Assembly: GCA_947053545.1 (NCBI GenBank)
Contig: CAMRSY010000012.1
Span: 1-42,336 of the forward strand
DNA from: an uncultured Clostridia bacterium
GTDB lineage: Bacteria; Bacillota; Clostridia; Christensenellales; Borkfalkiaceae
DNA: 42,336 nt
Direction: 5' to 3'
The notes beneath the pieces are model-generated. The model ran no database searches, had not been told where the DNA came from, and saw nothing but the letters and a program-made list of their open reading frames with translations. Positions 1,955-42,334 of the stretch are shown here, piece by piece (the first letter of the stretch is position 1; every line of letters begins with the position of its first letter). Position numbers and translations under genes: made by a program.

Positions 1955-2455
1955 ATGAAAGCTATTTTACACGCGGATAAGGAGTGGGGCATAGGAAAGA
2001 AAAACGGTTTGATGTTTTCCATACCCGCCGATATGAAATTTTTCAGGGAAACGACTACGGGCAACGTCGTCGTTATGGGCAGCAATACGTTAAAGTCTTT
2101 CCCCGGAGGCAAACCGTTAAAAAACCGTACTAATATCGTTTTATATCCCGACGGAGAGGACAGGGACGACTGCAAAATTGTCCGCAGCTTAAACGAGTTA
2201 TTTGAAGAAATTAAAAAGTACGATAAAGACAGGGTGTTCGTAATAGGCGGAGCAATGCTTTATAAAACGCTGTTGCCCTACTGCGACGAGGTGCTGGTAA
2301 CCAAAGTTGAAGCCGTTGGCGGCGCCGACGCATATTTTGAAAACTTAGACGAAAACGACGCTTTCAAATTAATATATTCGTCCGAACCCGTGGAAACAAA
2401 CGGATACGAAGTTAAGTTTACAACATATAAAAATCTTGCGCCCAAACCTTATTGA
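1955..2455 (+). CDS. folA: Dihydrofolate reductase
   Basis: DHFR reduces dihydrofolate to tetrahydrofolate with NADPH, recycling the product of the neighbouring ThyA. The 166-residue length is typical. Visible family marks are WGIG (11-14), the active-site acid Asp26 in the PADMKFF helix, the cofactor segment VVMGSNTLKSFPGGKPL, and VFVIGGAMLY for the second cofactor-binding turn. The residue before the catalytic helix region reads MFS rather than the common PW, a mild deviation. The Shine-Dalgarno sequence is AAGGTG. The 95-bp gap after thyA holds a small GC-rich hairpin (1876-1889) without a T run, so read-through from thyA is likely. Confidence 0.95.
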   Translation: MKAILHADKEWGIGKKNGLMFSIPADMKFFRETTTGNVVVMGSNTLKSFPGGKPLKNRTNIVLYPDGEDRDDCKIVRSLNELFEEIKKYDKDRVFVIGGAMLYKTLLPYCDEVLVTKVEAVGGADAYFENLDENDAFKLIYSSEPVETNGYEVKFTTYKNLAPKPY

Positions 2456-2478
2456 CGGCGCGGTAACGAAGTGAATAA

Positions 2479-3435
2479 ATGAAATTAAAGTCCAGAATCG
2501 CAATTTTAACCTTAAACACGCTTTTTTGCGCGGCGATAGTCCTTCTAACCTTATTTTGTATGCGCGGGTGGGGCACGCTTGTAAAAGTGCTGTTATACGG
2601 TACGGCGGCTCTGGGCTTTATTATTTGCGCCGTAACGTTTTTTTTAAATAAGCAAACTGTTTTTAAAAGCGCTTTCGTACTGGTTTGTTGCGCGGCGGTA
2701 GTCGTGGCTTCTTTTGCGGCAATAAGCGAATTGGGGCATTTAAACGATTACCCTACCGACGCGGAAAAGACTGAACGGCTTGTAGAAATTATAAAAGGTT
2801 TTGGCGGCTGGGGTATGTTCGTTTACTTTCTGATACAGGTGTTGCAGGTCGTGGTTCTGCCTTTGCCCGCCGCCGTGTGTTATATCCCCGGCAGCCTGAT
2901 ATGGGGGCCGCTTTACGCAACGCTTATAGCATCGGCGGGGGTGATAGTCGGTTCGGTTATAGCATATTTTATAGGCAGGTTTTTCGGCAAGCGCGCGGTT
3001 ATATGGATTGCGGGCAAAGAAACCACCGAAAAATATTCGGCTTATCTGTCCAAACGCGGCAAAGTGCTGTTCGTATTAATGCAGATTTTACCCTTTTTCC
3101 CCGACGATATTTTGTGTATGGTAGTGGGGCTGACCGGGATGAATTTCTGGTTTTTTGTGTCTTCGATAGTTATCGTTCGTCCGTTTATAATCGCGGCCTA
3201 CTGCTATCTCGGCAGCGGTACGGTAATACCTTTCAGCGGCTGGGGCATAGCCGTCTGGATTGCAGTATTCGCCGTATGCATAGTGCTTGCCGCGCTGTCG
3301 TTTAAGTATCAGGAAAAATTTGAAAACTGGCTTGTAAATAAATTTATGCGCAAAAAGCGCGGGGAGCACTCGGGCGTAAACGCTGAAAACCCAACGGCCG
3401 CTCCCGATAACGAGGAAACAGATGAAAATAATTGA
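2479..3435 (+). CDS. TVP38/TMEM64 (VTT, DedA-related) membrane protein
   Basis: This 318-residue integral membrane protein has about three N-terminal hydrophobic segments (residues 8-30, 34-53, 63-82), then a VTT core at about 105-270. The core shows a Pro-rich re-entrant segment near 120-140 (VVLPLPAA, GSLIWGP), a Gly-spaced helix ending in YFIGRFFG, and a second re-entrant block with MQILPFFPDD and GLTGM. The family includes lipid scramblases and undecaprenyl-phosphate flippases; the exact substrate is not deducible here. The last 30 residues are charged and probably cytoplasmic. It ends 14 nt inside the next gene, so the two are translationally coupled. Confidence 0.85.
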   Translation: MKLKSRIAILTLNTLFCAAIVLLTLFCMRGWGTLVKVLLYGTAALGFIICAVTFFLNKQTVFKSAFVLVCCAAVVVASFAAISELGHLNDYPTDAEKTERLVEIIKGFGGWGMFVYFLIQVLQVVVLPLPAAVCYIPGSLIWGPLYATLIASAGVIVGSVIAYFIGRFFGKRAVIWIAGKETTEKYSAYLSKRGKVLFVLMQILPFFPDDILCMVVGLTGMNFWFFVSSIVIVRPFIIAAYCYLGSGTVIPFSGWGIAVWIAVFAVCIVLAALSFKYQEKFENWLVNKFMRKKRGEHSGVNAENPTAAPDNEETDENN

Positions 3436-4330
3436 CGCGCACGCGCATGTCGTGCAATGTATAGCGGGATTTACGTCTCGCGGGGAGCTTAGGGCGGCGG
3501 GCGGCGGAAACGCCGTTTATGCCGACGGTACAACTTTTAAAATGCTGCCGGACGGAATGGGCGAAACACAAGCTACGCCCGAAGACCTTTTAAAAGTTAT
3601 GGATGATAACGGAGTTGAAAAAGCGGTTCTTTTGCAGGGGCAGTTTTTCGGCTTTCAGAACGAATATACGGCGCAGGCGGTAAAAAAATATCCCGAAAGG
3701 TTTGCAGGCGCCGGTTCGTACGACCCGTTTTGCGTAAACGCTGTTGCAGTAAAAAACAGACTGTTTAAAGAGCTGGGTTTCAAGGCGGTTAAGTTCGAGT
3801 TGTCCAACGGTTCGGGACTTATGGCATATCATCCGCCCGTGGACGTAAACGGCGAAATTATGCGCGGGGAATATTCTTTTGCGCGCGAAAACAATTTAAC
3901 GGTAGTTTTAGATATAGGCAGGCCGCGCAACTGCTGCTGGCAAACTGACGCGCTGGCAAAAGCGGTTAGCGACTTTCCTCAGGTAAAATTCGTAATATGT
4001 CATCTGCTGGCGCCCCAGAGCGGCGACGGCGAACTTTTAAAGCGCGAATTAAGCAAATTTGCGCTGCCCAACGTCTGGTTCGATTTGGCGGCTCTGGCGG
4101 CAAACCAAAAGCCCGAAACTTATCCGTATCCCACGGCGGTTAAGCATCTGCAAACGGCGAAAGAGGTGCTTGGCGCCGACAGACTTATGTTCGGTAGCGA
4201 TATGCCGTCAACGCTCTGCCGCGAATCTTACGACCGTTTGGTAAGCTATATTGCGGAAAGCGGAGTATTTGACAAAAACCAACTGGAAGAGGTTATGTAT
4301 TGGACTGCGGAAAGAGTATACTTTAAGTGA
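3422..4330 (+). CDS. Amidohydrolase-family (amidohydrolase 2 type) TIM-barrel hydrolase
   Basis: This 302-residue protein is a metal-dependent hydrolase or decarboxylase of the amidohydrolase superfamily. It begins with IDAHAHV, the first metal-binding HxH strand. It keeps the barrel marks: a KAVKFE strand around residue 120, FVICHLL with a likely metal His near 190, and MFGSDMP near 257 with the conserved Asp. The substrate is unknown. A 45-residue insertion after the HxH motif carries Gly/Ala-rich sequence. Its start overlaps the VTT membrane gene by 14 nt, which supports co-expression. A weak 6-bp hairpin without T run (4332-4346) follows the stop codon. Confidence 0.85.
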   Translation: MKIIDAHAHVVQCIAGFTSRGELRAAGGGNAVYADGTTFKMLPDGMGETQATPEDLLKVMDDNGVEKAVLLQGQFFGFQNEYTAQAVKKYPERFAGAGSYDPFCVNAVAVKNRLFKELGFKAVKFELSNGSGLMAYHPPVDVNGEIMRGEYSFARENNLTVVLDIGRPRNCCWQTDALAKAVSDFPQVKFVICHLLAPQSGDGELLKRELSKFALPNVWFDLAALAANQKPETYPYPTAVKHLQTAKEVLGADRLMFGSDMPSTLCRESYDRLVSYIAESGVFDKNQLEEVMYWTAERVYFK

Positions 4331-25031: not shown

Positions 25032-26087
25032 ATGGAAAGAAAGATTACAAAAACAGTTATTATCGGCGGCGTTAAGGTAGGCGGCGGCGAAAGCGTTAAA
25101 ATACAGTCTATGTGTACCTGTAAAACGTCGGATACAGTACGGTGTTCGGCTCAAATCAACGCGCTTGCAAACGCAGGCTGCGATATAGTAAGAGTGTCCG
25201 TTTTAGACGAAGACGACGCGGCGGCAATAAAAATCTTAAAGGCAAGTTGCTCGGTTCCGCTTGTTGCCGACATACATTTTTCGCACAAACTTGCGGTTGC
25301 GGCAATAGAAAGCGGTTGCGACAAAGTGCGCATAAACCCCGGCAATATCGGCGGTGAAAACCAAATTAAAATTGTGGCGGACTGCATTAAAGCGCACAAA
25401 ATACCCGTGCGCGTAGGCGCAAACACGGGTAGCCTTGAAAAGTCGTTTGCCGACAGATACGGTAAAAGCGCGCAGGCTTTGGTTGAAAGCGCAATGCAAA
25501 ACGTGCGTATTTTTGAAAAAAACGGAGTCGGCGATATAGTTGTGGCGGTTAAATCTTCCAACGTGCAGCTCACTTACGAAGCCTATACGCGGCTTTCGCA
25601 GATATGCGGATATCCTTTGCATATCGGCGTAACAGAGGCTGGTACGCGGCAAAACGCAATTGTAAAATCCGGCGCGGCGCTGGGCGCGCTGCTGTTAAAC
25701 GGAATAGGCGATACCCTGAGAATATCTATAACGGGCGATCCCGTTGAGGAGGTGTACGCCGCTAAACAGCTTTTACGCGCAGTGGGACTGGATAAAAATT
25801 TTGCCGAAGTGATTTCCTGCCCTACGTGCGGAAGGTGCCGCTGGAACGTAATGTCGCTAGCCGCAAAAGTAAACGAAAGGGTGAAAGACGTAAAAAAGCC
25901 GCTAAAAATAGCCGTTATGGGCTGTGTGGTAAACGGTCCCGGTGAGGCGGAAGATTGCGATTTGGGTATTGCGGGTTCGAAAGAGTACTGCGTACTTTTT
26001 AGGAAAGGCGAAATAATTAAAAGAGTTAGCGCAGAAAACGCGGAAGAAGAGTTTTTCAAAGAATTAAACGGTATTTTAAATGAGTGA
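25032..26087 (+). CDS. ispG: 4-hydroxy-3-methylbut-2-enyl diphosphate synthase (IspG/GcpE)
   Basis: IspG is a 4Fe-4S enzyme of the MEP isoprenoid pathway that converts the cyclic diphosphate MEcPP to HMBPP. The 351-residue protein has the TIM-barrel start with VKIQSMCTC, the DIVRVSV and VADIHF strands and RINPGN. Cluster cysteines lie in SCPTCGRC (Cys263, Cys266) and in the AVMGCVVNGPGEAEDCD block. The start codon lacks a Shine-Dalgarno sequence and follows a GCAA hairpin. In Bacillota, MEP genes often precede polC and rimP, and this order is kept here. It overlaps the next gene by 8 nt. Confidence 0.96.
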   Translation: MERKITKTVIIGGVKVGGGESVKIQSMCTCKTSDTVRCSAQINALANAGCDIVRVSVLDEDDAAAIKILKASCSVPLVADIHFSHKLAVAAIESGCDKVRINPGNIGGENQIKIVADCIKAHKIPVRVGANTGSLEKSFADRYGKSAQALVESAMQNVRIFEKNGVGDIVVAVKSSNVQLTYEAYTRLSQICGYPLHIGVTEAGTRQNAIVKSGAALGALLLNGIGDTLRISITGDPVEEVYAAKQLLRAVGLDKNFAEVISCPTCGRCRWNVMSLAAKVNERVKDVKKPLKIAVMGCVVNGPGEAEDCDLGIAGSKEYCVLFRKGEIIKRVSAENAEEEFFKELNGILNE

Positions 26088-27615
26088 TACGTTTTTAAAC
26101 GAAATACGTACAATTAAATCGCTCGAAACTGCCATAATTTCGTCGGTAACGCTTATTAAAGCAAAAAGCAACGTTGAAATAAGTATTGTAACCGACAAGG
26201 CGTATTCACAACAGGACGAAACAGCGGCAAAGAAAATTGCGCGCAGGTTTGTGCCCGAATTTTTTTCGTGTTCGCTTAAAATTGTAAAACTTACTCCCGA
26301 CGCTGGAATGATTGCCGAGAGTATATTCTCTTTGATAGGCTCGATTAACCGTCAGCTTGCCGCCTTTGTATCTAAAGACGACATAAAGGTTGAAAAAAAC
26401 GAAAACGGTTTTTATTTCGAGGTTGCCGTTGTTCATGCTTCGGCGTATACTGCCGACGTTGCCGAAAAACTTGCCGGCGAGCTTAAAAAGCGGTTTTGCG
26501 GCGGTTTTGCCGGGCGTTGCGTAGCTGTGGAAAGCAAGCTGGACGATATAAAAATAGAGGAAAAGCACGAAAATATTCAGTACGAAATTCCTCCTAGGTC
26601 GTTTGAAATTGCCGATTTTTCTTTTTTGGAGGGCGGGGTAACCCATCAACGCGCCGTATATATCGCCGATTTGAATTTTATAAGCGAAAGCGTGGTAATA
26701 TGCGGTGAAATTATCGATTTGCGTGAAAAAACTGTTACAACGTCCGGCGGTAAAGAAAAACTTATGTATAATTTTACCGTAAACGACACAACGGCTTCGG
26801 TGCGCGTAGGATATTTTACCAGACAGAAAAGTATTGAAAAGATAAAAAAGCTTAAAGTCGGCGACAGCATTGTACTTACGTGCAAAACCGAAAGTTTTAA
26901 CGGAACGGTTCGTCCCACGGCTAATTTTATCGATTTCGGCAGAGTGCCTGACGGTTTCGTGCCCGAAAAACGCATGTCAAAGCCTGTGCCGAAATATTAC
27001 GAAACTGTTTTCCCCGAACCGTACGTTGACTATATGCAAAGCAATTTATTTTTCGAAAGCAAATTGCCGAAATGTTTAACGGACAATACTTTCGTTGTTT
27101 TCGATTTGGAAACTACGGGATTAAACAGTTCTCCGTCCGCGGGAAATATGGATCGGATTATCGAAATAGGCGCTTATAAAATTATCGGCGGAGAAATAAA
27201 GGAAAGCTTTAACACGTTCGTCAATCCGCAAAGAAAACTTTCGGCGGAAATTATAAATCTTACCGGTATCGAACAGATTACCGTGGACGGCGCGCCGTCT
27301 TTTGAAAAAGTAATGCCCGATTTTTTCAAGTTTATACACGGTTGCTATCTTGTCGGACACAACGCCGCAAATTTCGACTATAAATTTGTAGATTATTACT
27401 GTTCTCAGTGCGGTTATGTGCCGGAGCGCAAATTATTCGATACTTTGCCGCTGGCGCAATCGCTTTTGCGTTTGTCTAATTATAAATTAAATACGGTAGC
27501 CGATTATTTCGGCATTACGTTTAACCATCACAGGGCGGCTGACGACGCTCTTGTTACGGCAAAAATATTTATTGAACTTATAAAAATAAAAAAATCTTTG
27601 CCAAATCTCTGTTAA
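26080..27615 (+). CDS. PolC-derived protein: N-terminal region, OB fold and DEDDh exonuclease, no polymerase
   Basis: This 511-residue protein occupies the place of polC, just before rimP, but carries only part of PolC. Residues about 1-185 resemble the PolC N-terminal region; about 190-287 form an OB-fold, nucleic-acid-binding type; about 335-505 form a DEDDh 3'-5' exonuclease. Exonuclease residues are all visible: Asp and Glu in VVFDLETTG, Asp in GHNAANFDYKF near 426-436, and His and Asp in HHRAADDA near 483-490. PHP, palm, fingers, thumb and duplex-binding parts are absent, and the OB fold joins the exonuclease through a short linker. It could proofread in trans, process RNA/DNA, or be a relict. 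It overlaps ispG by 8 nt. A separate full polC elsewhere cannot be excluded. Confidence 0.88.
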   Translation: MSDTFLNEIRTIKSLETAIISSVTLIKAKSNVEISIVTDKAYSQQDETAAKKIARRFVPEFFSCSLKIVKLTPDAGMIAESIFSLIGSINRQLAAFVSKDDIKVEKNENGFYFEVAVVHASAYTADVAEKLAGELKKRFCGGFAGRCVAVESKLDDIKIEEKHENIQYEIPPRSFEIADFSFLEGGVTHQRAVYIADLNFISESVVICGEIIDLREKTVTTSGGKEKLMYNFTVNDTTASVRVGYFTRQKSIEKIKKLKVGDSIVLTCKTESFNGTVRPTANFIDFGRVPDGFVPEKRMSKPVPKYYETVFPEPYVDYMQSNLFFESKLPKCLTDNTFVVFDLETTGLNSSPSAGNMDRIIEIGAYKIIGGEIKESFNTFVNPQRKLSAEIINLTGIEQITVDGAPSFEKVMPDFFKFIHGCYLVGHNAANFDYKFVDYYCSQCGYVPERKLFDTLPLAQSLLRLSNYKLNTVADYFGITFNHHRAADDALVTAKIFIELIKIKKSLPNLC

Positions 27616-27618
27616 AAC

Positions 27619-27647
27619 TTGCCAAACGGAAAATATAGTGCTATAAT
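27619..27647 (+). promoter_or_regulatory. Sigma-A promoter of the rimP-nusA-infB operon
   Basis: TTGCCA (27619-27624), 17-bp spacer, TATAAT (27642-27647). It starts right after the stop codon of the PolC-derived gene and gives a leader of about 68 nt. Confidence 0.88.
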
Positions 27648-27663: not shown

Positions 27664-27702
27664 CTTAATGTTAAGATTGAGTGCCTTGACGAGGCACTCA
27701 AT
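27664..27702 (+). promoter_or_regulatory. Structured leader before rimP
   Basis: Two adjacent hairpins lie in the predicted leader: CTTAA/TTAAG (27664-27675) and a perfect 11-bp stem ATTGAGTGCCT/AGGCACTCAAT (27676-27702) with a 5-nt loop. There is no T run after it, so it is unlikely to be a plain terminator. A role in controlling the nusA operon is possible but unproven. Confidence 0.6.
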
Positions 27703-27721: not shown

Positions 27722-28180
27722 ATGAAATTTAAAGCCGTTGAAGAAATTACCGCAATGCTTAACGGCATAGCGGAACCGATGGGAATAGAAATCGTTGATA
27801 TCGAGTGCAACGAAAAGGCTGGGTCGCTTACGGTATTTATCGAAACCGAACAGGGCGTCGACTTAAACACCTGCGAAAAATTTCATAACGCAATTTTCGA
27901 ACCGATTGACGAACTCAACCCCAGTTTCGGGCAAGCGTATACTTTAAACGTTTCCAGCCCCGGATTGGACAGACCGTTTAAAACGGCAAGGGATTTCGAA
28001 AGAAATCTGAATAAAGAAATCGAAATGAAGCTTTATGCGCCTATGAAGGGCAAAAAGTTTTTGCAGGGCATTCTAATTTCGTTCGACGAAAATTCGGTTA
28101 GTATAATTCTGTCGGGCGAAGAGGTGAAAATTCCCCGCAATAAAATTGCAAAGATAAACAAAGCTATCAAATTCGAATAA
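27722..28180 (+). CDS. rimP: Ribosome maturation factor RimP
   Basis: RimP aids 30S subunit assembly. The 152-residue protein shows the N-terminal domain with GIEIVDIECNEK and VFIETEQGVDLNTCEKF, the YTLNVSSPGLDRPF signature near 78-92 and a C-terminal SH3-like domain ending in IAKINKAIKFE. GGGA serves as Shine-Dalgarno. First gene of the nusA operon, 48 bp before nusA. Confidence 0.96.
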   Translation: MKFKAVEEITAMLNGIAEPMGIEIVDIECNEKAGSLTVFIETEQGVDLNTCEKFHNAIFEPIDELNPSFGQAYTLNVSSPGLDRPFKTARDFERNLNKEIEMKLYAPMKGKKFLQGILISFDENSVSIILSGEEVKIPRNKIAKINKAIKFE

Positions 28181-42259: not shown

Positions 42260-42334
42260 TGGAGCAGGCGACGGGAGTCGGACCCGCCAAAATCAGCTTG
42301 GGAAGCTGACGCCATACCGATAGGCGACACCTGC
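42260..42334 (-). tRNA. tRNA-Gly(CCC) with unusual tertiary bases
   Basis: Read leftward this is a 75-nt tRNA with encoded CCA. The acceptor GCAGGTG pairs with CGCCTGC, and the discriminator is T, as in tRNA-Gly. The anticodon stem TCAGC/GCTGA holds the loop TTCCCAA, anticodon CCC. The D arm is only 3 bp (GCC/GGC) with loop TATCGGTAT. The T arm is GCGGG-TCCGACT-CCCGT, so position 55 is C rather than T. Position 15 is T and position 48 is G, opposite to the usual purine-pyrimidine pair. Confidence 0.92.

Follow-up and report, generated by a model that had tools for sequence, protein, structure and literature searches.

A polymerase-less derivative of PolC at the ispG-rimP locus in the order Christensenellales

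The stretch of DNA analyzed here (the window; 42,336 nucleotides of contig CAMRSY010000012.1, from an uncultured Clostridia bacterium of the order Christensenellales) encodes a 511-residue protein that descends from the replicative polymerase PolC and retains only its N-terminal domain (NTD), its OB fold, and its DEDDh exonuclease. The same short form takes the place of PolC in about half of the families sampled from the order, in which nearly every genome checked carried a single C-family polymerase gene, a DnaE. The reading that we favor, with somewhat better than even confidence, is that the short form is a clamp-tethered accessory factor of the DnaE1 replisome, left by the reduction of PolC, which proofreads in trans where its exonuclease is intact. 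The features of the locus, in window coordinates, are as follows:

25032..26087, + strand: ispG, the upstream neighbor, overlapping the ATG of the short form by 8 nt
26080..27615, + strand: short PolC-derived protein, 511 aa, stop codon included; clean ORF, intact
26080..26574, + strand: PolC-type NTD, about residues 1-165; profile-profile match to the PolC NTD
26641..26955, + strand: PolC-type OB fold, about residues 188-292; profile-profile match to the PolC OB fold
26956..27081, + strand: linker, residues 293-334, in place of the first PHP half; PolC match absent
27037..27051, + strand: predicted clamp-binding-type motif QSNLF, residues 320-324; conserved across short forms
27082..27594, + strand: DEDDh 3'-5' exonuclease domain, residues 335-505; Pfam RNase_T, catalytic residues intact
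27619..27647, + strand: promoter-like site ahead of rimP, TTGCCA-17-TATAAT; consensus match only
27722..28180, + strand: rimP, the downstream neighbor; ORF after the promoter-like site

An earlier note on this DNA had described an NTD-OB-DEDDh protein of 511 residues between ispG and rimP, without PHP or polymerase parts, and the ORF, Pfam, and profile-profile comparison with hhalign bear this description out. The exonuclease was matched by Pfam RNase_T over residues 339-497 (5.8e-40), and its nearest solved chain is the PolC exonuclease of T. maritima (2p1j; 2.2e-37). The frame is clean and the DEDDh residues are all present (D342, E344, D433, H484, and D489), as the note had stated. Alignment with PolC, which the note had proposed, gave 2.3e-6 for the NTD and 1.7e-16 for the OB fold, each a single comparison with a reference of eight PolCs, seven of them from the same order. 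The Pfam OB-fold match in the window's protein was under the gathering score (PF01336; 7.4e-5); PF01336 was found at E <= 0.01 in 15 of 17 short-form family members, and the short-form family profile also matched the OB fold of Geobacillus PolC (3f2b; 8e-9). The PHP segment of PolC was left unaligned with the short form, Pfam returned no PHP match, and the linker gave no profile-profile match to PolC (E 0.64), in agreement with the note, which had placed the exonuclease after the OB fold across a short linker. No polymerase core was found in the short form: its best NCBIfam model was that of PolC itself (PRK00448; 8.8e-50), reached with 169 bits against a full-length cut-off of 873. A structure model of moderate quality (mean pLDDT 67, pTM 0.34) gave block means of 71-90 over residues 1-150 and a poor exonuclease half; pLDDT was below 50 at residues 292-327, most of the linker, as expected of a flexible segment. 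The short form is under strong purifying selection in the window's genus: dS was computable for 4 of 10 within-genus pairs (one of them, the window against L032, with dS >2), and dN/dS in these four was 0.05-0.11, with 0.08 in the least saturated pair (dS 0.89).

The promoter that the note had read as beginning 4 bp past the stop codon of the short form is there as a match to the consensus only. The note had also suggested looking for the short form between the same two genes in related genomes. Among 70 matching loci of short-form size, which include at least three same-contig duplicates and two other exonucleases (L107, L126), 63 had a recognized ispG upstream and 50 a recognized rimP downstream, with both neighbors recognized at 46; many of the remaining loci, without a recognized neighbor, lay at a contig edge or had lost the neighbor to the ORF filter. 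The related claim, that polC normally lies between ispG and rimP, held in part. Three of eight PolC loci of the order (full-length or partial) are so placed (f2, f12, f22), those in f4 and f11 adjoin ispG without a recognized rimP, and one further f22 locus shares a short contig with an incomplete ispG; the claim failed for f5 and f13, where PolC is not near ispG.

Distribution was surveyed in an even sample of the order, 161 genomes from 33 families. The short form was counted from tables in 88 genomes (85 among the rows listed plus G139, G121, and G066; a few are partial, e.g. G153 and G080), 59 of the 161 reached the PolC cut-off, and in two PolC was in pieces (G084, G098). Sixteen families have the short form and 17 have PolC; in these 161 genomes and 33 families the two were never seen together in one family. 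Among the rows listed, 12 genomes had neither form, six from PolC families (G075, G101, G118, G136, G140, G170) and six from short-form families (G110, G123, G129, G157, G169, G195). Of the 36 other genomes in the window's genus, 35 matched the protein, a few as fragments only; the single member without a match, G019, likewise gave no ispG match. When six genomes without either form were checked for ispG, the gene was absent from G019, G075, G101, G118, and G140 and at a contig end in G170, so that these six assemblies lack the locus or truncate it. A class-wide sample (245 genomes, 234 of them from other orders) gave, among the matches listed, nine of full coverage, all in this order (f1, f28); those listed elsewhere were exonuclease matches, mostly within PolC-sized frames, and a strongly degenerate short form in another order could have escaped the matches listed. 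A 481-aa exonuclease frame in G333 (f91) was considered as an independent short form and rejected: its match begins after the OB fold, and in the same genome a full-length PolC adjoins ispG. An internal stop within the match was seen in one (G128) of the 85 listed short-form rows. The sets of 84 and 86 rows used below leave out identical sequences, the partial L036, the fragments of G005, G010, and G021, and L012 and L031, the last two lost to the ORF-overlap filter; because the 86 rows were chosen as open frames, their openness is no evidence in itself.

The note had suggested a search of the genome for a second polC and for dnaE, and had proposed that DnaE took over replication. The window's own genome, 85.6% complete, yielded one C-family polymerase gene, a DnaE (G000, contig C7), which is also its only PF07733 match. 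This DnaE exceeds the cut-offs of the DnaE models PRK06826 and PRK05673 (NF005298, 1393 bits, cut-off 1260; NF004226, 1280 bits, cut-off 1002), and has the PHP motif HHDHEHCDH and a clamp-type motif, QISLF, at 947. Such a PHP motif and a clamp motif are given as DnaE1 signatures in passages of PMC12926913 (section 14); judged by its sequence, the partner polymerase is of the DnaE1 type. C-family polymerases were checked in 55 genomes: 33 from short-form families, 19 chosen as PolC-bearing, and 3 from PolC families but without PolC. Exactly one C-family gene, a DnaE, was present in 32 of the 33 (in two of these the match was split within one frame), while G077 had no C-family match; among the C-family matches of the window's genome and the 32 other short-form-family genomes there was no second polC. 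The takeover by DnaE is thus supported. PolC and DnaE occurred together in 18 of the 19 PolC-bearing genomes, and G047 (86% complete) had PolC only. Three genomes of PolC families with DnaE alone (G075, G101, G140) were rejected as further losses of PolC; ispG was not found there either, which suggests that the PolC locus is probably absent from these assemblies.

The DnaE tree (quick method, 40 proteins from 41 loci, L079 dropped; unrooted, no outgroup) placed the 24 DnaEs of short-form genomes on one side of one branch, with SH-aLRT 100. If PolC with DnaE1 was the ancestral set, as in other Clostridia, this branch implies that the change was a loss and that it happened once. Homology, position, and the DnaE tree all support the note's view that PolC was reduced to an NTD-OB-exonuclease protein. 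The exonuclease-domain tree, weakly resolved and with long branches, gave two changes for the short form, since the f30 row falls among the PolCs; one origin is compatible with it. The PHP metal site HHDHEHCDH was intact in all 40 DnaEs, including 24 of 24 in the short-form clade, so that DnaE may proofread itself and might then have no need of the exonuclease. Clade-specific changes in DnaE were few and not telling: inserts at three places, each 2-5 alignment columns long, and three differences close to fixation. DnaX length, a possible sign of the NTD replacing tau domain V, varied with no clear pattern.

The earlier note overlooked three lineages that have retained the protein without its exonuclease catalytic residues. 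Of 86 aligned short forms, 68 have the full DEDDh set and 18 have lost it. The losses comprise every row examined from f16 (7) and from f19 (9) and the two g83 rows of f32, the other three f32 rows being intact. These exonuclease-dead lineages still have the reading frame, the NTD, and the OB fold; in f30 the OB fold has been lost and the exonuclease retained. Among 11 genomes with a full-length RNase_T match in the short form, that match was the sole one of the RNase_T family in 7 (five f28, one f8, one f24), and four (G061, G078, G038, G131) had further RNase_T proteins; the window's own genome had one other, weaker match. Of six exonuclease-dead genomes scanned, G083 (f19) had no RNase_T match at all, G080 had a partial one only, and G051, G102, G121, and G054 had other RNase_T proteins that could compensate.

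A clamp-type motif in the linker had also escaped the note. The linker differs between families, yet has Q-x-[D/N/S]-[L/F/M/I]-[F/L] at residues 320-324, where the Q occurs in 55 of 60 rows and, among family representatives, in 13 of 16; the looser pattern Q-x-x-hydrophobic-[F/L/V] is present in 67 of 84 short-form rows. It is absent from 7 of 7 rows of f16, 6 of 9 of f6, 2 of 9 of f19, the sole f30 row, and one f1 row. In the exonuclease-dead lineages a Q-x-x-[F/L]-[V/Y] motif persists in f19 (7/9) and in g83 of f32 (2/2). The motif sits within the low-confidence stretch of the structure model and is closely preceded by another conserved element, Y-x-x-V-x-P. PolC's own clamp motif occupies the extreme C-terminal end and so belongs to the half that the short form lacks. 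The linker motif fits the clamp consensus QL[S/D]LF given in a passage of PMC3919608; clamp binding by QSNLF-type motifs is a prediction.

Compared with PolC (about 1300-1500 residues, against 511), the short form has a homologous NTD, OB fold, and exonuclease and, relative to f2, f12, and f22, the same place between ispG and rimP; it differs in lacking both PHP halves, the polymerase core, and the C-terminal clamp motif, and in an exonuclease joined to the OB fold by a linker that bears its own clamp-type motif. With epsilon (DnaQ) of E. coli it shares a polymerase-less DEDDh exonuclease, a clamp-type motif, and a genome in which the only C-family polymerase found is DnaE1, and it likely works as epsilon does. 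Unlike epsilon, it has an exonuclease closer to that of PolC, the added PolC NTD and OB fold, and a motif before the exonuclease, where epsilon's comes after it. The short form passed the broad DnaQ domain model TIGR00573 (99.6 bits, cut-off 71.5) but failed the epsilon equivalog models TIGR01406 (92.5 against 222.7 bits) and PRK05711 (89.9 against 196). Passages of PMC3919608 describe another domain-loss variant of PolC in Clostridia, the PolC without exonuclease insertion of some Clostridia and Negativicutes, which is the mirror image of ours: there the polymerase stays and the exonuclease goes. They also record some Clostridia with DnaE1 as the only C-family polymerase, as here, and contain no mention of a retained PolC front half. 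The noncanonical mycobacterial DnaQ is likewise a DEDDh protein beside a PHP-proofreading DnaE1, but is described in passages of PMC12926913 (section 14) as a DnaQ homologue, with PolC parts unmentioned. The actinobacterial PolA2/APEX resembles the short form in joining a clamp motif to an exonuclease domain able to lose catalysis and leave a tether, with QxxLF in the vestigial exonuclease domain; it differs as an A-family enzyme that retains its polymerase (PMC12926913, in part).

The order of events that we propose would be as follows. In the common ancestor of about half of the order's sampled families, polC would have been cut down to NTD, OB fold, and exonuclease through loss of the polymerase core, the C-terminal clamp motif, and the two halves of PHP. 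DnaE1, which this ancestor would have had alongside PolC like other Clostridia, would have become the sole replicative polymerase, and the linker replacing the first PHP half would have gained a QxxLF-type sliding-clamp motif. The clamp would then hold the short form at the replication fork, like the epsilon subunit in E. coli; the exonuclease, predicted to be active where its residues are intact, would proofread DnaE there in trans, and the NTD and OB fold may keep contacts with the clamp loader or DNA. The exonuclease of B. subtilis PolC proofreads DnaE in trans, according to part of PMC5627055, and this precedent, together with the clamp-type motif, makes trans-proofreading here more likely. 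Several observations count against this account: the dead exonucleases (f16, f19, g83), the rows without the motif, the presence of other RNase_T proteins as possible proofreaders, the intact DnaE PHP site (24/24), and the PolC loci of f5 and f13 away from ispG. Since exonuclease-dead lineages exist beside an intact DnaE PHP site, proofreading cannot be the whole story, and a scaffold role of the NTD and OB fold becomes its main rival or partner; we read the short form as best explained by a second, non-catalytic role besides proofreading, which may be that of a scaffold.

Taken further, the scaffold may have come first: the NTD, OB fold, and clamp motif would form a non-catalytic tether joining clamp, clamp loader, or ssDNA to DnaE, which would proofread through its own PHP domain and leave the exonuclease expendable. 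The three lineages that lost exonuclease residues and kept frame, NTD, and OB fold, the persistence of the motif in f19 and g83, and the intact PHP sites speak for this reading, as does a figure legend in PMC12926913 that relates N-terminal subdomains of PolC to domain V of tau. We nevertheless find it rather unlikely as the primary role, because DEDDh is intact in 68 of 86 and selection in the window's genus is strongly purifying; moreover, f30 has kept the exonuclease without the OB fold, f16 has lost the clamp motif along with the exonuclease, and in 2 of 4 f16 genomes scanned (G051, G102) other strong RNase_T proteins might have taken over. An exonuclease of repair or 3'-end processing, acting away from the fork and only incidentally of PolC descent, would be in keeping with the other DEDDh exonucleases of related genomes and with the fact that repair enzymes too can bear clamp motifs; it is improbable given that the PolC NTD and OB fold are retained and that PolC is replaced family by family. 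That the protein is a degenerating remnant of PolC, soon to be lost, is very improbable: relaxed selection would mean ratios near 1 and broken frames, against the low dN/dS of the four pairs and the single internal stop among 85 listed rows, even though exonuclease residues have gone in three lineages and the OB fold in f30. An error of assembly or binning, with the true polC elsewhere or missing, is hardly credible. Nearly all genomes are drafts, the named ones metagenome assemblies, and the window's own is incomplete, but the same form recurs in 88 genomes spread over 16 families, and among them are f28 genomes with completeness ratings of 98-100%; of the six genomes with neither form that were tested for ispG, five lacked it and one (G170) has it at a contig end.

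Surveys recognize three replication systems, DnaE1 alone, PolC with DnaE1, and PolC with DnaE3 (PMC12926913, section 14, and PMC3919608, both in part), and the abstract of the 2013 survey calls the Clostridial set of PolC and DnaE1 experimentally uncharacterized. No PolC reduced to its front half was found in the passages of PMC12926913 and PMC3919608, and a full-text literature search (by titles and abstract openings, with subscription papers mostly outside it) returned no published description of the short form. The 2026 polymerase survey, PMC12926913, states that it used complete representative genomes only, and the absence of the short-form group from it may reflect the mostly draft state of these genomes.

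The clade represents a natural route from PolC with DnaE1 to DnaE1 alone in which the non-polymerase half of PolC has been retained, a route directly relevant to how that half serves DnaE. A broader proposition, which we offer tentatively and think somewhat less probable than not, is that in Clostridia the front half of PolC had the original function of assisting DnaE in trans; after the takeover by DnaE1 it would have become a free-standing, clamp-bound replisome subunit with a conserved core of NTD, OB fold, and clamp motif and an optional exonuclease. On this proposition, an accessory subunit of DNA polymerase III, for which we found no earlier description, would have been made by decapitating a polymerase. 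If the accessory-factor reading is true, the exonuclease-dead lineages would be natural separation-of-function variants, and PolC-directed antibiotics should spare this group.

The short form, the PolC-derived exonuclease protein lacking PHP and polymerase parts, varied in size and domain content. A conserved Y-x-x-V-x-P element was observed in its linker (residues 307-312; window 26998-27015), on the N-terminal side of the clamp-type motif QSNLF. A variant of 448 aa was located at 2154-3500 of locus L113 (genome G066, family f30); it retained the exonuclease residues but had neither an OB fold nor the clamp-type motif. Extended short forms, with frames of 560-714 aa, were found at loci L104 and L106 (family f1, genus g27) and in genomes G138, G154, and G168. 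Two of these proteins, one of 581 aa and one of 555 aa, had about 95-120 residues ahead of the profile match.

Some short-form genomes also carried second exonuclease genes (L105, 1894-3078; L107, 1585-2934), in which a DEDDh-type domain occupied the N-terminal portion and an additional part the C-terminal portion. Within the window, a strong 12-bp hairpin (ATTGAGTGCC...GGCACTCAAT) was located at 27676-27702, flanked by the promoter-like site on one side and rimP on the other; it yielded no Rfam match at the gathering score. Both ends of the contig, which is the window itself, bore tRNA genes (1-51 and 42263-42334).

Compared with the DnaE of PolC-bearing families, that of short-form genomes had three small inserts specific to the clade and differed at three further points in a near-fixed manner, with example sites at residues 474-505 and 1018-1019 of the L040 protein. 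A full-length PolC from family f13 (G048; L059, 6024-10394) had, by alignment, lost the catalytic residues of its own exonuclease, a further case of exonuclease loss within the order that contains the short form. In G064, a genome with a completeness rating of 100%, the DnaX frame was just 410 aa (contig C1, 142565-143620), leaving scant space for a tau-type polymerase-binding tail.
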